A stretch of DNA of 64,000 nucleotides from an uncultured bacterium (lineage in GTDB: Bacteria; Hydrogenedentota; Hydrogenedentia; Hydrogenedentales; CAILVY01): NCBI GenBank assembly GCA_937951485.1, contig CALEDJ010000009.1:1-64000 (forward strand), in the 5' to 3' direction. Positions within the stretch are counted from its first letter, which is position 1. Each line of letters begins with the position of its first letter. Shown piece after piece: positions 45,934-59,784 of the stretch. A program made the position numbers and the translations under genes. The notes beneath the pieces were generated by a model that had not been told where the DNA came from, did no database searches, and saw only the letters and a list, made by a program, of their open reading frames with translations.

Positions 45934-48900
45934 ATGACAATCCATGCCAGGCATTACGGCCACGGGGGAATCGGGCGAACAGTTGCAGTGGCCTGTCTCC
46001 TGCTGGCGTCGGCGTATGGCGCCATTTCAGGGGTCGGCTGTGCGGCGTTCGCGCAGGGGGGGCGGGCGAAGGCCGAGGCCCTGGATTGGCCGATGTGGCG
46101 CTACGACGCGGCGCGCAGCGCCGATACGCCATTGGCGATCAAGGACAAACTGCATCTGCAGTGGGTGCGCGAACTGCCGGAACCCAGGCGCGCCTGGCCG
46201 CACCAGTGGGACGACATTGGAAAACTGGACTTCGACGTATCCTATTCGCCGGTGGTGCAGGGCGGGCGCATTTTCGTGCCCAGCATGGTCACGGACAGTA
46301 TGTCCGCGTACAGCATCGAAGATGGCGCGGAACTCTGGCGCTTCTATGCGGACGGTCCGGTGCGCCTGGCGCCCGTGGCATGGGAAGAGAAGGTCTATTT
46401 CATTTCTGACGACAGTCATCTTTACTGTCTTGACGCAGCCACTGGAAATCTTGTGTGGAAGTTCCGGGGCGGCCCGGCCGACAAGTGGCTGCTGGGAAAT
46501 GAACGCATCATCAGTTTCTGGGCGGCGCGCGGCGCGCCGGTGATCCTGGACGGCATTATCTATTTCGCCGCCGGGTTCTGGCCCATGCATGGGGTGTTCA
46601 TATACGCGCTGAACGCGACCACCGGCGAGATTGTGTGGCTGAACGACACGACAGGCTCGGATTTTGTTGATTTCCCGCACGGCGGCGCTGAGGGATACGG
46701 CAGCATCGCGCCGCAGGGCTATCTCGCCGCGTCGGAAGATGTGCTGGTGGTGGCTGGCGGCCGGACGCCGCCCGCGTTTCTGAATCGGCACACGGGCGAA
46801 GTCGTGGACCTGCAACTGCGCGGCCCGAAGGGCGGCGGCAACTATGCGGTCACCGCCGACGGCAGGGATGCCAGGCGCAATGCGGCGCTCGCCGAGCGGG
46901 TAGCGGCAGTGGCCGATGAACTGGACGGCGAGGCGTTCAACGAACTGGCCGCCCAAGGGCGGCTCTTTGTCACTACGGTAAAGGGCACGCTGTACTGTTT
47001 CGGTCCGAAGTCGGTGAAACCGGTTCGCCACCCCTGGGCGCCGGCGCCCTTGGCGCCGCGAAGCGCCCAATGGGCCAAGTCCGCCCAGGAAATACTCGAA
47101 GAACTCGGTGAGCGGGAAGGATATGCGCTTCTTCTTGGGGCGGGGTCCGGCGATCTCTTGCGAGAACTGCTGACACGCAGCGAATTGCACATTGTCGTGG
47201 TCGAGAAGGATACGGCAAAGGTTCGGGAATTGCGGGACGAGATCGCCGGGGCGGGCCTGTATGGGCGGCGCGCGGCGGTGATTCATGCATCGCCCGCGGA
47301 CTTCCGCGTGCAGCCGTACCTCTTCAGCGTGGTCGCGAGCGAGAGCGCCGACGCGGCCGACATCGCGCCTGATCAGCCCGTTCTTGCCCGCGTTCTGGAC
47401 CGGGTGCGGCCATACGGCGGCGTGGCGTACCTTGGCGCGTCTTCCGGCAAATTGAAGGCCATGCGGCAGGCGGCTGAAGCGGCGGCGGTGGACCGGGTCT
47501 CGGTCGCAACACGCGGCGAAGCCTTGTTCGCGCGCCGCGCCGGGCCGCTGACCGGCGCCGGTTCATGGTCGCATCAGTATCACGATTCCGCCAGTACGCT
47601 TGTTTCCGAAGAGGAGCGTGTGCGCCTGCCCCTGGGCCTGTTGTGGTTTGGCGGTCCCAACAACCATAACATCCTGCCGCGCCATGCGGGTGGCCCCAGG
47701 CCGCACGTGGCCGCGGGGCGCGTGGTCTATCTCGGCGTGGACAGCATCGGAGCGCGGTGTGTCTACACCGGCCGTCAATTGTGGCTGCGGGAGTTTCCGG
47801 GCATCGGTCACCCCTTCACGAACCTTGAATTGGAAGAACGCTGGCAAAAGGGCGAAAGCGTCTATATGACCAATATTCCGGGTGTCACCTATATCGGAAG
47901 CCCGTTCGTGACGCTTGCGGACAGCATCTATCTCCGCTATGAAGGCCGCATTCTGCGGTTGGAACCCAGAGACGGCGCGACATTGAATGAATTCTCGCTG
48001 CCGGGAACGCCGACCCGTGTGTTGTACGGGGATGACGCCCCCGACTGGGGCCATGTCAGTGTATGGGAGGATTTGCTGATTACCACGGCCGAACCGCACC
48101 TGTTCGAAGACCAGGAACTGGGTTGGCTCGACAGTTACAGCGGCACGTCAAGCAAGCGCGTGGCGGTGTTGAACCGGTTTACAGGCGAGGTCCTTTGGGA
48201 ACGCGAAGCCCAAATCGGTTTTCGGCACAATGCCATTGTTACGGAGGCCGGGCGGGTCTTCGTGATTGACGGTCTTTCGGAAAATGGGTTGGCCCACCTG
48301 GCGCGGCGCGGCCGTGTGCCGGAAGATCGCCCGAAAATTATGGCGCTGGACGCGCGCAGCGGGGCGGTGCTGTGGCAGTCGGACAGCGATGTCTTCGGCA
48401 CTTTTCTGCTATACAGCAAGGACCACGACATACTCATTGAGGGCGGCAGCCGGGACATGCGCCGCCCATTTGAGGATGAACCGGGGCAAATGGCCGCGCG
48501 ACGCGGCGCCACCGGCGAACTGTTGTGGGAACGCGGCGGAAGTTTCACCCTGCCAGGCGCGCTGCGCGGCGATATGCTCATCCCGGGGCGACCGGGCGTT
48601 GCGCGGAATCTGCTGACCGGTGAGGACTGGAAACGGGAGCAGCCCCATACGGGCGAAAGCAGCCCCTGGGCGTTCGCCCGCGCGTATGGATGCAACACGC
48701 TCAATGCCAGTAACTACCTGCTGCTTTTCCGCACGGGGTCGGCGGGCTACTTCGATTTGGAACATGACTCGGGCACCGGCAACATCAGCGGGATCAAATC
48801 CGGATGCACCGTCAACCTGATTCCCGCCGACGGCGTGCTGGCCGTGCTCGATTACACCCGCACCTGCACATGCAGTTACCAACACCAGACATCGCTGGCC

Positions 48901-49443
48901 CTGGTTCACATGCCGGAGGATCCGAACATCGAGGCGTGGACGCGCTTTGCGGCAGCGCCCCCGAATCCCGAAGGGCACGGAATCAATCTGGGGGCGCCCG
49001 GACGCCGGGTGGACGTGGCCACGGGCCGGGTCTGGCACGACGCGGAAGGCACCTATCGCCGACATGCCTCCGCGATTGCCGACAAGGGCGACAGCATTGA
49101 ATGGGTGGCCGCTTCCGGCAGAGAGGGCGAAGGCACGATCCCCGTTTATGACCTCTTGCGCGCGGACTACACCGTCCGCCTCCATTTCGCGGAATTGAAT
49201 CCGAAGGTCGCGCCGGGTGACCGCGTATTTGACGTGTTGATTGACGGCAAGCCGGTGCTGACCGGTTACGACATCCTCGCGAAAACGGGCGGCCCCGGGC
49301 GGGCAACCGCCGAAGAGTTTGTCGTTCCGGCGGACATGCGCCTGGAAATTGAATTGCGTCAGGCCGGGCAGGCGAAAATGCCGCCGGTTATCAGCGGGAT
49401 CGAGATGATCGCGCACGACGTGGACACGGCCAGGGACAAGTGA
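45934..49443 (+). CDS. Secreted PQQ-type beta-propeller with inserted methyltransferase-like fold and C-terminal malectin-like domain
   Basis: 1169 residues. The N-terminal stretch VAVACLLLASAYGA ending AAFAQGG is a Sec signal or anchor. Propeller repeats run from about 50 to 370 (AYSIEDGAELWRFY, YCLDAATGNLVWKF, YALNATTGEIVWL) and again from about 560 to 960 (VLNRFTGEVLWERE, MALDARSGAVLWQ). Between them, about residues 380-540, sits AQEILEELGEREGYALLLGAG, then VVVEKDTAKVRELRDEI, a Rossmann-like methyltransferase layout. Residues about 1045-1165 (YTVRLHFAELNPK, FDVLIDGKPVL) look like malectin, a glycan-binding fold. The ATG follows GGGAG. Three bases separate it from the permease gene. Confidence 0.82.
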   Translation: MTIHARHYGHGGIGRTVAVACLLLASAYGAISGVGCAAFAQGGRAKAEALDWPMWRYDAARSADTPLAIKDKLHLQWVRELPEPRRAWPHQWDDIGKLDFDVSYSPVVQGGRIFVPSMVTDSMSAYSIEDGAELWRFYADGPVRLAPVAWEEKVYFISDDSHLYCLDAATGNLVWKFRGGPADKWLLGNERIISFWAARGAPVILDGIIYFAAGFWPMHGVFIYALNATTGEIVWLNDTTGSDFVDFPHGGAEGYGSIAPQGYLAASEDVLVVAGGRTPPAFLNRHTGEVVDLQLRGPKGGGNYAVTADGRDARRNAALAERVAAVADELDGEAFNELAAQGRLFVTTVKGTLYCFGPKSVKPVRHPWAPAPLAPRSAQWAKSAQEILEELGEREGYALLLGAGSGDLLRELLTRSELHIVVVEKDTAKVRELRDEIAGAGLYGRRAAVIHASPADFRVQPYLFSVVASESADAADIAPDQPVLARVLDRVRPYGGVAYLGASSGKLKAMRQAAEAAAVDRVSVATRGEALFARRAGPLTGAGSWSHQYHDSASTLVSEEERVRLPLGLLWFGGPNNHNILPRHAGGPRPHVAAGRVVYLGVDSIGARCVYTGRQLWLREFPGIGHPFTNLELEERWQKGESVYMTNIPGVTYIGSPFVTLADSIYLRYEGRILRLEPRDGATLNEFSLPGTPTRVLYGDDAPDWGHVSVWEDLLITTAEPHLFEDQELGWLDSYSGTSSKRVAVLNRFTGEVLWEREAQIGFRHNAIVTEAGRVFVIDGLSENGLAHLARRGRVPEDRPKIMALDARSGAVLWQSDSDVFGTFLLYSKDHDILIEGGSRDMRRPFEDEPGQMAARRGATGELLWERGGSFTLPGALRGDMLIPGRPGVARNLLTGEDWKREQPHTGESSPWAFARAYGCNTLNASNYLLLFRTGSAGYFDLEHDSGTGNISGIKSGCTVNLIPADGVLAVLDYTRTCTCSYQHQTSLALVHMPEDPNIEAWTRFAAAPPNPEGHGINLGAPGRRVDVATGRVWHDAEGTYRRHASAIADKGDSIEWVAASGREGEGTIPVYDLLRADYTVRLHFAELNPKVAPGDRVFDVLIDGKPVLTGYDILAKTGGPGRATAEEFVVPADMRLEIELRQAGQAKMPPVISGIEMIAHDVDTARDK

Positions 49444-49446
49444 CGC

Positions 49447-50748
49447 ATGAGCATCTGGAAACTCATCCTCGAGGAAATCGCCCACAATCGCGGCAATTTT
49501 GCCATTGGGCTGGCCTGCATCGCCGTGGCGCTGGCCTGCGTCGTGGGGTCCGTCACACTGCTTGCGGCGCATGATCTCCGCACCGATCAAATCATCGTTG
49601 AGAAGGAACGGGAGACCCGCGAGCAGATGGCGCGCCTCGAAAACGACTACCGCCTGATGATGCGGGAGATGGGATACAACGTCCTCATTCTTCACAAGGA
49701 TCAGTCCCTGGAAGAACTCAGGATGAAGGGTTTTCCCACGACGTATATGCCGGTGGATTATGTTTTCAAGATTTCCACCGGCGGCGTCAAAAACCTGAAC
49801 CATCTTTTCCCCATTTTGCAGCATCGGACGCACTGGCCGGAGAAAGACCGCGAGGTCATGGTGTGCGGCGTGATGGGGCAGGTGCCCAATTTTGCGAAGC
49901 CGCAGTTTCTGACGGCGGAAGGACAGTACCGGGACCCTATCCGCGAGACGATTCCGGAGGGGACCATTGAAGTCGGATACGATGTCGCGGCAGGCGTGGG
50001 CCTGTCCGAGGGTGATACGGTGACGTTGAAAGGAGAAACGTTCACTGTCCATCGCGTTCATCCCCGCAAAGGCAATGAGGACGATGTGACGGTATGGTGC
50101 GGACTGGATCACGCGCAGCGATGGTTCGACGCGGAAGGCAGAATCAACGGCATCCTGGCGCTGGAATGCGTCTGTAATTTTGAAAGTTTTGGCCTGGTGG
50201 AGCAAGAAATCCGGAAACTGTTGCCGGACACACAGGTCATGGAGTTTGGCACCATTTTGCGCGCCCGCTTTGAGGCGCGCGCGCGCGCCGCGGAAATGCA
50301 CAAGGACGCGGTGGCGGCCGAACTGGCATACCGCGCGCGGCTCGGGGAACAGCGACAGGGATTGGTCCGCGTGTTGATACCCACGGTGCTGCTGGGCGCA
50401 GGCGTGTGGATTTTCTTTCTGATTCTTGGAAATGTCAAGGAACGCCGGGGAGAGATCGCCATCCTGCGCGCCGTGGGCGCGGGCCAGCGGAAAATCATGG
50501 GCATTTTTCTGGTCAAGGCGGCGATCATGGGGCTTGTGGGCGCCGTCATCGGTTATTTGCTGGGCCTCTTCGCAGGGGCGGCGTGGGAAGGGTTCCCTTT
50601 CTGGTCGCGCGCGATCGGCGGCCTGTTCAGTCCCGGTCTCGCGGGCGTGGTCCTCGTCGGCGCGCCCGTGCTTGCGGTGATTGCCGGGTGGGTTCCGGCG
50701 AAGAAGGCCGCGCAACTCGACCCCGCCGATATCCTGCGCGAAGAGTAA
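49447..50748 (+). CDS. MacB/FtsX-type ABC transporter permease
   Basis: 433 residues. One N-terminal helix (GNFAIGLACIAVALACVVGS) is followed by a charged coil-prone stretch and an extracytoplasmic domain of about 270 residues. Three C-terminal helices follow, the first holding GVWIFFLILGNVKERRGEIA with the FtsX hallmark ILRAVGAGQRKIMGIFLVKA. This is the topology of MacB/LolC-type mechanotransmitters that move lipoproteins or peptides rather than channel them across the inner membrane. Its ATPase follows 58 bases downstream. Co-transcription with the propeller gene suggests that protein is part of, or handled by, the same system. Confidence 0.9.
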   Translation: MSIWKLILEEIAHNRGNFAIGLACIAVALACVVGSVTLLAAHDLRTDQIIVEKERETREQMARLENDYRLMMREMGYNVLILHKDQSLEELRMKGFPTTYMPVDYVFKISTGGVKNLNHLFPILQHRTHWPEKDREVMVCGVMGQVPNFAKPQFLTAEGQYRDPIRETIPEGTIEVGYDVAAGVGLSEGDTVTLKGETFTVHRVHPRKGNEDDVTVWCGLDHAQRWFDAEGRINGILALECVCNFESFGLVEQEIRKLLPDTQVMEFGTILRARFEARARAAEMHKDAVAAELAYRARLGEQRQGLVRVLIPTVLLGAGVWIFFLILGNVKERRGEIAILRAVGAGQRKIMGIFLVKAAIMGLVGAVIGYLLGLFAGAAWEGFPFWSRAIGGLFSPGLAGVVLVGAPVLAVIAGWVPAKKAAQLDPADILREE

Positions 50749-50806
50749 CCCCGGTGAGATGGAGGCGCATTGGCGGAAACGCGAAGGCGGCTCCGGGAGA
50801 CGCGAG

Positions 50807-51469
50807 ATGACAGAGCAAACGGTCCTGCATTTGCAGGGTGTATCGAAATACTACGCCCGCGACGGGAAACGGGTTGTGGCCGCGCAAGACGTATCCCTGG
50901 CGCTCGAACCCGGCGCATTCAAAGTGCTGCGCGGCCCCAGCGGCAGCGGAAAAACCACCGTCCTGTTGGCGGCGGGCGGACTGCTGCGGCCGGACGCCGG
51001 CCGTGTGTTCGTGCGCGGCGACGACATTTATGCCCTGTCGCCCGAACAACGCGCAATGTTCCGGGCAAGGAACATCGGCTTCGTCTTCCAGCAATTCTAT
51101 CTTGTCCCCTACCTGACGGTGCTGGACAACGCGCAATTGCCCGGAATTGCGCTCGCTATCCCGAACTTGCACGCCAAGGCCGCCGGGCTGCTCATGCGCT
51201 TTCAGTTGGGAGACCGGATAGACCACCTCCCTTCCGAACTGAGCACGGGCGAACGACAGCGCGTGGCGCTGGCCAGGGCATTGGTCGCGGACCCGGCGGT
51301 GCTGCTCGCCGACGAACCCACCGGAAACCTGGATGCCGAAAACGAAGCAATCATTCTGGCGTGTCTGCGCGACTTCGCGGCGAACGGCGGCGCGGTCCTC
51401 ATGGCGACGCACGGACTGCGCTCGGACGGATTTGACGAGGTCTATCAAATCAATGGCGGCAGGCTATAG
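50807..51469 (+). CDS. ABC transporter ATP-binding protein (LolD/MacB type)
   Basis: 220 residues. Walker A RGPSGSGKTT at 42-51, Q-loop VFQQFYLVPYLTV, signature LSTGERQRVALARAL (LSTGE in place of LSGGQ), Walker B VLLADEPTGNLD and switch His in MATHGL. The short length and VFQQF-x-L-x-P-x-L context are those of the LolD/MacB/FtsE class, fitting the FtsX-like partner upstream. ATG at 50807 follows GGGAG; an in-frame ATG at 50759 is an alternative. Confidence 0.93.
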   Translation: MTEQTVLHLQGVSKYYARDGKRVVAAQDVSLALEPGAFKVLRGPSGSGKTTVLLAAGGLLRPDAGRVFVRGDDIYALSPEQRAMFRARNIGFVFQQFYLVPYLTVLDNAQLPGIALAIPNLHAKAAGLLMRFQLGDRIDHLPSELSTGERQRVALARALVADPAVLLADEPTGNLDAENEAIILACLRDFAANGGAVLMATHGLRSDGFDEVYQINGGRL

Positions 51470-51604
51470 TCGGGGCCGGTCCTGTTGTGGCCTGTCTTCC
51501 TGTTGTGGCCGGTCTCCAGACCGCGCCACGGCAACGACCGAAGGTCTCCTATTGTGAATAGACCGACCAGACACTTCAACATGTGTGAAGAAAGGCGGGA
51601 TTGA

Positions 51605-52660
51605 ATGCACCAGAATCGTGAACATCGATCATCTCCGGCAGCGACGCCGCCCGGAAAGCGTCCCCTGTCGCGCCGATGCGTGATATGCGCCGTGGTCCTT
51701 TCATTCTTGCTGCCAATGCCGGCAGGCGCCTGTCCCATTCCCGTGTATCAGTACGCCCTGGAATGGTGGGACCGGGACCCCTACGATATTTACGTCTTTG
51801 ACACCGGCGTGATGACGGAGGATGAGCAGGCCGCGCTGGATCTGCTGGAAGGCGTTTCGAGCGGGCGGCGGGCGGAAGAGATTCCGGCCAACGTCCGGTT
51901 GTTCCATGTGCGGGCCGAATCGGAAGATCGCATTCATGCCCACGCCGCATTGCGCGGCGAGAAACCCGCATCGCTGCCGTGGATGGCGGCGTATTATCCG
52001 TCCCTGTCCCGGCGCATGCGCGCGCCCATGTGGACGGGCAAACTGAACACCCAAAACGTGCAACTGCTGCTGGATTCCCCGATGCGGCGGAAAATCTGCG
52101 AACTGCTGGAGAAGCGCGTCTCGACGGTGTGGGTGCTGCTTGAAAGCGGTGCACGGCGCGCCGACGCGGCGGCGGCGCGGCGGCTCGAATCCGAACTGAA
52201 ACGCCTGCAGGAAACGCTGGTTCCGCCTGATCCGAGCAAATGGGGCTGGACGGACATGGTGATTTCAGATATTCGCTTCGAGACGCTGCGGCTTTCCCGG
52301 AACGATCCGGAGGAGCGGATGCTTGTGGCGATGCTCCTGAACAGCGAACCCGACCTCAAGGATTTTGATCTGCCCATTGTATTCCCCATCTTCGGGCGCG
52401 GGCTTGTCATGCCTGCGCTGGTGGGGGACGGTGTCAATCCCCAGATGATTCGTGAAACCGCTGAGTTCCTTACCGGCTCCTGCTCGTGCACCGTGAAGGC
52501 AGCCAATCCGGGCAAGGACCTCATCACCACGTTCGATTGGAACGCGCGGGTGAAGCCGCTGACAACGCAGGTGACCCTGCCCCCCGGAGGTTTGGGCGCA
52601 TTTCTCGATGGCGCGGAGCAGTTGAAGAAGGACCCGAACGCCGACAATCAGCAGCCGTGA
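51605..52660 (+). CDS. Secreted protein of the ABC/propeller cluster, unknown function
   Basis: 351 residues. A twin-Arg-like basic start (PLSRRC) runs into VICAVVLSFLLPMPAGACPIP. Cleavage after AGA would leave a mature Cys-Pro N-terminus. The next block is YQYALEWWDRDPYDIYVFD, then a region resembling thioredoxin-like secondary structure but without a CxxC. A late LTGSCSCTVK has a C-x-C pair. Similar ACP(I/V)PV(Y/F) proteins sit beside FtsX-type transporters in related genomes (memory, not checked). 135 bases after the ATPase, probably the last gene of the unit. Possible roles are metal or thiol handling for the exported propeller, but this is conjecture. Confidence 0.7.
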   Translation: MHQNREHRSSPAATPPGKRPLSRRCVICAVVLSFLLPMPAGACPIPVYQYALEWWDRDPYDIYVFDTGVMTEDEQAALDLLEGVSSGRRAEEIPANVRLFHVRAESEDRIHAHAALRGEKPASLPWMAAYYPSLSRRMRAPMWTGKLNTQNVQLLLDSPMRRKICELLEKRVSTVWVLLESGARRADAAAARRLESELKRLQETLVPPDPSKWGWTDMVISDIRFETLRLSRNDPEERMLVAMLLNSEPDLKDFDLPIVFPIFGRGLVMPALVGDGVNPQMIRETAEFLTGSCSCTVKAANPGKDLITTFDWNARVKPLTTQVTLPPGGLGAFLDGAEQLKKDPNADNQQP

Positions 52661-57966: not shown

Positions 57967-59784
57967 TCATTGCTTCGTTCGGTATTCTGCGAGGCGTTCG
58001 TAAAGTTTGGTCTTGCTGATGCCGAGCAGGCGCGCGGCGTCAACCACCCTGCCATTGCAATAGTCCAGCGCACGCAGGATGTGGCGGCGCTCCACTTCGG
58101 CGAGCGTGAGGGGGCGGGGCTCCTGTTCGTGGGAGCCGGCGGCCGCCTTCAGATCCTCGACGGTGATGAATTCGCCCAAGCCGAACGTGATCGCGGCTTC
58201 GACACAATATTTCAACTCCCGGACATTTCCGGGCCAGGGGCATTCGCGGAGGAATGCGATGGCGCCCTCGGCAAAACCGCGCAGCGGTCGCTTCGCCATG
58301 CCGCGCGCTTCATTGAGGAAATGCTCCGCCAGTTCCTCAATATCCTCTTTGCGGTCCCGAAGCGGGGGAATTCGGATTTCAACGCCGCGCAGGCGGTGAT
58401 ACAGGTCGCGCCGGAATTCCGGGTGGCGCACCGGGTCGGAGATGTTCTTGTTGGTGGCGGCGACAATGCGGAAGTCGGCCTGAACTTCCTCCCTGCCGCC
58501 CACGCGCCGAAAGCGCTTCGTTTCAATGGCGCGCAGGATGCGCGCCTGGCTTTCGGGACTCAGATCGCCCACTTCATCCAGGAAGAGCGTGCCGCCGTCG
58601 CTTAACTCAAAAAGACCGGTCTTTCGCGCCAGGGCCCCGGTGAAGGCGCCTTTTTCATAGCCGAAGAGTTCGCTCTCTATGAGATCGTTCGGAATTGCCG
58701 CGCAATTGACCGTAATCAGCGGGCCTTGGGCGCAATGGGACAAATCGTGGATAAGGCGCGCGACCAGTTCTTTTCCGGTGCCGGTTTCGCCGATGATCAG
58801 CACGGAATGGAGGGTCGGGGCCACCTTGGCGATGAGATCGCGCAGACGCTGCATGACGGCGCTGCCGCCGACCAGCACCGCAGCGCGGCTACGCGCCAAG
58901 CGCAGGCGTTCGACTTCCATTTCCAGGCCGCGGCGATTCTCAATCGCGGCGTAGAAAGGGGCGAAGGCATTGGCCAGCGCCACCAGAAAATGCAGATCGC
59001 CCTCGTCATAGGCGCCGTGCGGCGTCTCGGTCTGCGCCACCATGGCCCCAATCCGGCGCTCGCCCAGAAAAATCGGCGCGGCCAGCGTTGTCATCAATTG
59101 TTTGTATCCCGGCCCTGTGCGCTCGGGGATAAGGAAGCCCCGCATCTCCCTCATCACCTGGCGTGCGGTCGTTTCCGGCGGCGGCGCGGTGTCATCGGGC
59201 GTTTCCTTGTGCGAAACGGGATACTCAAGAGGCTCCTGATCGCCGTGGCTCAGCGCAAGCCAATATCGCAGGGGATGCAAGCGGTCGCACACCGCCCGGG
59301 TCAATGCGCCGACCAATTCATCCATGGTTTTCATGCGGCTGAAGGTGCGGCTCAGACTGAACAGTTTCAGCACATCGCCCACGGAGGTGAATTTGCTTTT
59401 GCCGAACTCGCGGAAACTGCTGTCGCTCAAATATACCGTCTCGCCTTCGGTGATGGAGAGGGTGGAATCGCCGCCCGCCTGACGCGGCTGCGGCGTGGCG
59501 GTGTCAATGACTTCAAAAGTGACATGCCCCACGCTGAACTCATCCCCGGGATTGAGAAGGCATTCCTCCACGGGTTCGCCGTTTACCAACGTGGCGTTTC
59601 GGCTCTTGAGATCGCGCAGGCGCACGCCGTCATTCTCGGCCAGCAATTCGCAATGGCGGCGCGAGGCGAGCAGGTCGAGCACGCGGATGTCACAACCTTT
59701 TTCGCGCCCAATCACCAGCGGTTTCGCGCCAATCTTCCACGTAATGCCCGCGTCTGGTCCCGTTTTTGCGCGAATCCGAAGCAT
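57967..59784 (-). CDS. FHA-GAF-AAA+ sigma-54-dependent activator
   Basis: 605 residues. FHA domain 1-95 (LVIGREKGCDIRVLD, SRRHCELLAEND, LKSRNATLVNGE), a GAF-like sensor about 130-300, AAA+ core about 310-545 with Walker A IIGETGTGKE, the sigma-54 contact loop ELFGYEKGAFTGALA, and DGGTLFLDEVGDLS, then a C-terminal Fis-type helix-turn-helix (RVVDAARLLGISKTKLYERL). It would activate sigma-54 promoters in response to a phosphothreonine partner or small ligand. Divergent from pilT, so pilus control is a reasonable guess, but no sigma-54 box was found there. Confidence 0.94.
   Translation of the reverse strand: MLRIRAKTGPDAGITWKIGAKPLVIGREKGCDIRVLDLLASRRHCELLAENDGVRLRDLKSRNATLVNGEPVEECLLNPGDEFSVGHVTFEVIDTATPQPRQAGGDSTLSITEGETVYLSDSSFREFGKSKFTSVGDVLKLFSLSRTFSRMKTMDELVGALTRAVCDRLHPLRYWLALSHGDQEPLEYPVSHKETPDDTAPPPETTARQVMREMRGFLIPERTGPGYKQLMTTLAAPIFLGERRIGAMVAQTETPHGAYDEGDLHFLVALANAFAPFYAAIENRRGLEMEVERLRLARSRAAVLVGGSAVMQRLRDLIAKVAPTLHSVLIIGETGTGKELVARLIHDLSHCAQGPLITVNCAAIPNDLIESELFGYEKGAFTGALARKTGLFELSDGGTLFLDEVGDLSPESQARILRAIETKRFRRVGGREEVQADFRIVAATNKNISDPVRHPEFRRDLYHRLRGVEIRIPPLRDRKEDIEELAEHFLNEARGMAKRPLRGFAEGAIAFLRECPWPGNVRELKYCVEAAITFGLGEFITVEDLKAAAGSHEQEPRPLTLAEVERRHILRALDYCNGRVVDAARLLGISKTKLYERLAEYRTKQ

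Follow-up and report, generated by a model that had tools for sequence, protein, structure and literature searches.

What role could be played in the cell envelope by the four genes located at positions 45934-52660 of the window, i.e., the whole 64,000-nucleotide stretch analyzed here, and do they belong together at all? The genes follow one another on the + strand of a 4.55-Mb genome with intergenic gaps of 3, 58, and 135 bases. They encode a giant propeller protein, an FtsX-type permease, an ABC ATPase, and a secreted protein, termed P4 hereafter. Rechecking the open reading frames reproduced the coordinates, lengths, gaps, and single direction given in the first-pass annotation, and the families assigned there agree with Pfam and NCBIfam profiles, which matched PQQ_2, Malectin, FtsX, and ABC_tran/LolD. 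One contig scan returned a sole near relative, on contig SLSB01000065.1 from Candidatus Hydrogenedentota. A role in anti-phage defence was rejected, as PADLOC returned nothing beyond LolE-like transmembrane (TM) and ATPase matches. Elsewhere in the window, the − strand at 57967-59784 encodes an FHA-type protein, part of which resembles a sigma-54 activator.

The first gene (45934-49443, + strand) encodes a secreted protein of 1169 residues, predicted by AlphaFold with a pTM of 0.85 and a mean pLDDT of 83.7. In the model, a signal region is followed by a first β-propeller (about residues 50-370), a methyltransferase-like Rossmann domain (about residues 375-535; 47056-47538), a second, BamB-like propeller (residues 541-993; 47554-48912), and a malectin-like C-terminal domain (about residues 1011-1162; 48964-49419), the strands of which are visible in the model. 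The Pfam profiles agree with this architecture, with a PQQ_2 match of 2.8e-26 and a Malectin match of 4.2e-11 over residues 1076-1147 (43.5 bits against a gathering cut-off of 23). Residues 541-993 by themselves match whole BamB-like propellers in fold searches (Z 23-26), with a VIA-align Z of 26.4 over 335 residues at an rmsd of 3.0. Despite this likeness, the giant differs from BamB and PQQ-like proteins in joining two propellers, a Rossmann domain, and a malectin-like domain in one secreted chain, in carrying four conserved cysteines, and in scoring below the cut-offs of the BamB and PQQ-dehydrogenase families (38.7 bits against 480 for PQQ_enz_alc_DH of NCBIfam).

The Rossmann insert had been placed between the blades of one propeller. 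It is recognized from the secondary structure of the model and from alignment, and the model suggests that it has one propeller domain on either side instead of lying within a single propeller. In distant relatives, the two propellers are encoded by two genes; the product of the second also contains a laminin-G domain and matches Methyltransf_11 weakly (2.4e-4 in one relative's protein). The window giant gave no Pfam methyltransferase match. In the full-length model, the order of strands and helices fits a class I SAM methyltransferase. In the alignment, motif I reads LLLGAGSG without the acidic residue; several relatives have lost the motif-I glycines, and the acidic residue is retained in L152. 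Judging from the alignment, the insert is probably an inactive, non-catalytic remnant because the acidic residue of motif I is missing, and we discarded an active methyltransferase on account of this degeneration. A propeller 91% identical to that of the window occurs in a genome from another family (L077, G019:C146:3701-6700), reflecting either a recent transfer or a misbinned contig.

The second gene (49447-50748, + strand) encodes an FtsX/MacB-type permease of 433 residues (FtsX, 3.2e-18). Hydropathy predicts four TM helices (residues 18-36, 309-327, 350-368, and 398-416). A large periplasmic domain separates the first helix from the second, and the FtsX domain occupies the C-terminal end, as in type VII transporters. 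The third gene (50807-51469, + strand) encodes a LolD/FtsE-like ATPase of 220 residues (ABC_tran, 2.6e-28; LolD, 8.5e-49) with intact Walker A (GPSGSGKT), signature (LSTGE), and Walker B (VLLADE) motifs, also as found in the type VII class. We read the pair as a type VII transporter because of the four TM helices and the FtsX domain. Among solved structures, MacB and LolC/LolE are the nearest in sequence, and LolD is the best NCBIfam family for the ATPase, yet the scores stay below the equivalog cut-offs of LolCDE (lolCE 60.4 bits against 362; LolD 166 against 308) and MacB (43 bits against 966), and the ATPase is a separate gene, not fused to the permease. No MacA adaptor or TolC gene was noticed beside the unit on inspection of its neighbourhood. 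In the loci L073, L074, and L075, a sister permease with adjacent cysteines (CC) is found near ArsR-like and ArsG/DsbD-type genes, with a thioredoxin-like protein bearing a Cys-rich tail also nearby.

The fourth gene (51605-52660, + strand) encodes P4, a protein of 351 residues without a Pfam or NCBIfam family match and without a match to solved structures by sequence. The original description as a secreted Cys-containing protein stands and can now be refined to a tandem thioredoxin fold on the basis of the AlphaFold model (pTM 0.82). The fold search with this model matched PDI-type proteins, and domain 2 (residues 157-290) is a thioredoxin fold (Z 9.6, 99 residues, rmsd 2.3). P4 shares the tandem fold with proteins of the PDI b/b' type and with thioredoxins, but the alignments show no CxxC redox site at the usual place. 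Instead, the CxC of P4 follows the final helix of domain 2, another cysteine is placed at what is probably the N-terminus of the mature protein, and neither Pfam nor NCBIfam has a matching family. Since CxxC is missing, any redox activity of P4 is putative. Cys43 (51731-51733, + strand), invariant in 45 P4 proteins, directly follows an AxA-like signal-peptide end that, by eye, is not a lipobox. A C-terminal TM helix is found in 36 of the 45 P4 proteins; the nine lacking it constitute the clade of the window; hence no anchor is encoded where the P4 gene follows that of the ATPase. A second, divergent P4-permease pair occurs in the window's own genome (G000:C31:51103-53275, L059), with an ATPase alongside and no adjacent propeller. 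In G063, P4 genes are tandemly duplicated with a degenerate CxC in both copies (L040:8945-11120). In two other loci (L009:5850-8942 and L041:3528-6620), the ATPase and P4 genes are separated by the gene for a 1030-residue protein whose C-terminal domain is of the heparinase II/III type.

What connects the three periplasmic parts is a near-invariant CxC motif, seen in the alignments of the propeller, the permease, and P4. In the propeller, C978-T-C980 (48865-48873, + strand) is invariant in alignment A6 and present in every propeller subtype that reaches this region, accompanied by the conserved C920 (48691-48693, + strand) and C958 (48805-48807, + strand) in alignments A4 and A6; the loop of residues 979-983 carrying the motif has a pLDDT below 50. 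In the permease, the periplasmic C241-V-C243 (50167-50175, + strand) has both cysteines in 98% of 43 proteins and is invariant in the 15-row alignment A7. In P4, C293-S-C295 (52481-52489, + strand) is conserved in 90% or more of the 45 proteins. These motifs could be structural disulfides.

Do the families also travel together? Among the 68 genomes of the window's phylum, the permease, the propeller, and P4 are each found in 32, and all three together in 29. We then used the CxC module, a 100-residue segment of the propeller containing the cysteines, for genome-wide searches, so the propellers found are not restricted to those beside the transporter. Across 386 genomes, a set that extends into other phyla, P4 and the module each occur in 39 genomes and coincide in 37, where 3.9 would be expected; in the 243 genomes of a second phylum, that of G340, each occurs in 40 and both in 37, where 6.6 would be expected. 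The hypergeometric p of 1e-36 and below is indicative only, as related genomes are counted and phylogeny is ignored. Genes in relatives were called as simple open reading frames on fragmentary contigs. The exceptions among the 386 genomes are G042 and G221 with P4 only (63% and 72% complete, with the propeller end either absent or truncated by the contig boundary), and G019 (82% complete) and G020 (where the end of a contig holds part of P4) with the module only; among the 243 genomes, P4 stands alone in three and the module in three. The permease profile matched all 39 P4 genomes and 20 others, one of which is G020, with others being the sister group or weak matches. The sequence distances of permease, P4, and propeller correlate across the 18 units holding all three (Mantel r 0.78-0.88). 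Operons are conserved among the relatives' loci, many with short gaps or 4-base overlaps, while the order varies from propeller-permease-ATPase-P4 in the window's clade to propeller-P4-permease-ATPase in mid relatives and P4-permease-ATPase-propeller in some distant ones. P4-propeller pairs without a permease alongside were seen in L145 and L147, near genes for apparent corrinoid methyltransferase components. The four genes form a real, conserved unit, and a chance neighbourhood is rejected because genome co-occurrence is far above expectation. The check proposed at the outset, co-occurrence of the four families in relatives, is passed at the genome level (37 shared of 39/39 and 37 of 40/40).

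The numbers of the partners are far from equal. Genomes have one to three P4 loci and up to 12 CxC propellers, many of them unlinked, with ratios of 8 to 1 in G340 and G059 and 12 to 1 in G424. In the closed genome G340, all eight CxC propellers are far from the transporter, with about 28 kb between even the nearest and the only P4 locus, and in the window's genome C51 bears a second CxC propeller and C31 the second P4-permease pair. As they outnumber the P4 loci and are often unlinked, the propellers appear to be clients of a single machine, which recasts the propeller in the window as one client of several. The first-pass annotation would have taken a propeller gene regularly found without the transporter as evidence against a unit: the two keep to the same genomes, but physical linkage often fails, as the eight of eight in G340 illustrate. 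As for a cofactor of the propellers, within the window's phylum the pqqC model matched none of the genomes that bear the module, but only G023 and G024, both lacking it. PQQ chemistry is unlikely since the host genomes have no pqqC; the host could still take up PQQ.

The shared genomes and the paired-cysteine motif common to both sides suggest that the unit is an undescribed cell-envelope machine finishing or delivering CxC propellers. We tentatively favour, at somewhat short of an even chance, that the type VII ABC motor and P4 carry out cysteine-based maturation of these propellers in the periplasm. ATP hydrolysis in the cytoplasm would, by mechanotransmission, move the periplasmic domain of the permease, on which P4, periplasmic and membrane-anchored in most relatives, would dock as the dedicated partner. 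The clients would be the secreted CxC-module propellers, comprising the giant encoded next to the transporter and, in many genomes, also several paralogues located elsewhere. Most likely, they would undergo thiol/disulfide exchange or receive a soft ligand, for instance a metal or metal-sulfur group, with the transfer presumably running from the CxC of the permease and that of P4 to that of the propeller. Counting against maturation are the lack of CxxC in P4, the low-confidence CxC loop of the propeller, and the degenerate CxC in both P4 copies of G063. There is a precedent for the general idea in NosDFY-type ABC transporters, which help to mature N2O reductase, a secreted propeller enzyme; our unit differs from NosDFY in transporter class and partners.

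The same features might instead describe a release or sorting machine resembling LolCDE, in which propellers are detached from the inner membrane or passed on in the direction of the outer membrane or the cell surface, with the CxC pairs serving as handles through transient intermolecular disulfides. The kinship with MacB, LolC/LolE, and LolD, the secreted clients with an extracellular-type malectin tail, and the service of many clients by a single machine speak for this alternative, to which we give roughly one chance in four; neither the propeller nor P4 shows a lipobox by eye, there is one permease gene instead of a LolC/LolE pair, and a LolA-like carrier gene was not noticed in the unit. 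Maturation could also take a more specific form, with a CxC relay from permease via P4 to propeller loading an oxyanion-derived group of molybdenum, tungsten, or another soft metal, perhaps of the metal-sulfur kind, supplied by ModA, ModBC, MoaD, and MoeB/ThiF in lineages having them. ModA-like genes are indeed found near 13 of the 45 P4 loci and two further permease loci, and in several of the window's close relatives they directly adjoin the unit. MoeB/ThiF is additionally present at six P4 loci, often plus MoaD and ModBC, and the modA equivalog cut-off is exceeded in L063 and L048. However, two thirds of the loci lack ModA, and the window's own genome has no ModA match at E 1e-5 and no ThiF match either. 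We consider both such loading and the relay rather improbable, and the ModA neighbour hints at molybdenum or tungsten as a lead drawn from gene neighbourhoods, not a finding on the window. If true, the relay would be an undescribed ATP-driven route of metalloprotein maturation outside the cytoplasm, powered by a type VII ABC motor. Clusters of the unit with ModA/ModBC, MoaD-like, MoeB/ThiF, and sometimes TauE genes were observed in L142, L146, L148, L141, L063, and L040.

As a rule, type VII transporters rely on periplasmic partners and carry no substrate across the inner membrane (PMC12646458; PMC5985334). Regulators of periplasmic enzymes belong to the class (PMC12646458), which, together with the malectin-like tail, would suit signalling, with the propeller/malectin protein sensing an envelope glycan and the transporter acting like FtsEX or BceAB; given that no conserved sensor kinase or hydrolase was noticed adjoining the unit and that many unlinked propellers exist per transporter, this seems very improbable. 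Least credible, and in our view hardly to be expected, is efflux of metal(loids) or drugs, which came to mind through the sister permeases of L073-L075, their adjacent cysteines, and their thioredoxin-like, Cys-tailed partner: the CxC group is tied to propellers, not to ArsG-type genes, and a MacA-like adaptor gene was not noticed in the unit.

As for the named type VII systems, MacAB-TolC, LolCDE-LolA, FtsEX-EnvC, and YbbAP-TesA have in common with our unit a 4-TM FtsX-type permease with a large periplasmic domain, a LolD/FtsE-like ATPase, and a dedicated periplasmic partner. The unit differs in that the partner is a tandem thioredoxin-fold protein, the permease bears a near-invariant CxC, and a propeller family co-occurs with it, and no MacA, LolA, EnvC, or TesA gene was noticed in it. 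We found no published description of such a system in the open-licence literature. The earlier suggestion that no named system has this composition is supported in the sense of a distinct, apparently unnamed envelope system, with families and co-occurrence conserved across phyla. The suggested cargoes fared differently: redox has become more plausible because of the CxC motifs and the thioredoxin fold, glycan has only the malectin-like tail as its basis, and lipoprotein found no direct support.

About one in ten of the 386 genomes, and one in six of those sampled from the second phylum, carry the unit, which would extend the type VII ABC systems by one whose partner is of a new kind and whose clients form an identifiable family. 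The CxC module would be a sequence tag predicting clients genome-wide, making the function of many unexplained giant propellers testable with one deletion.
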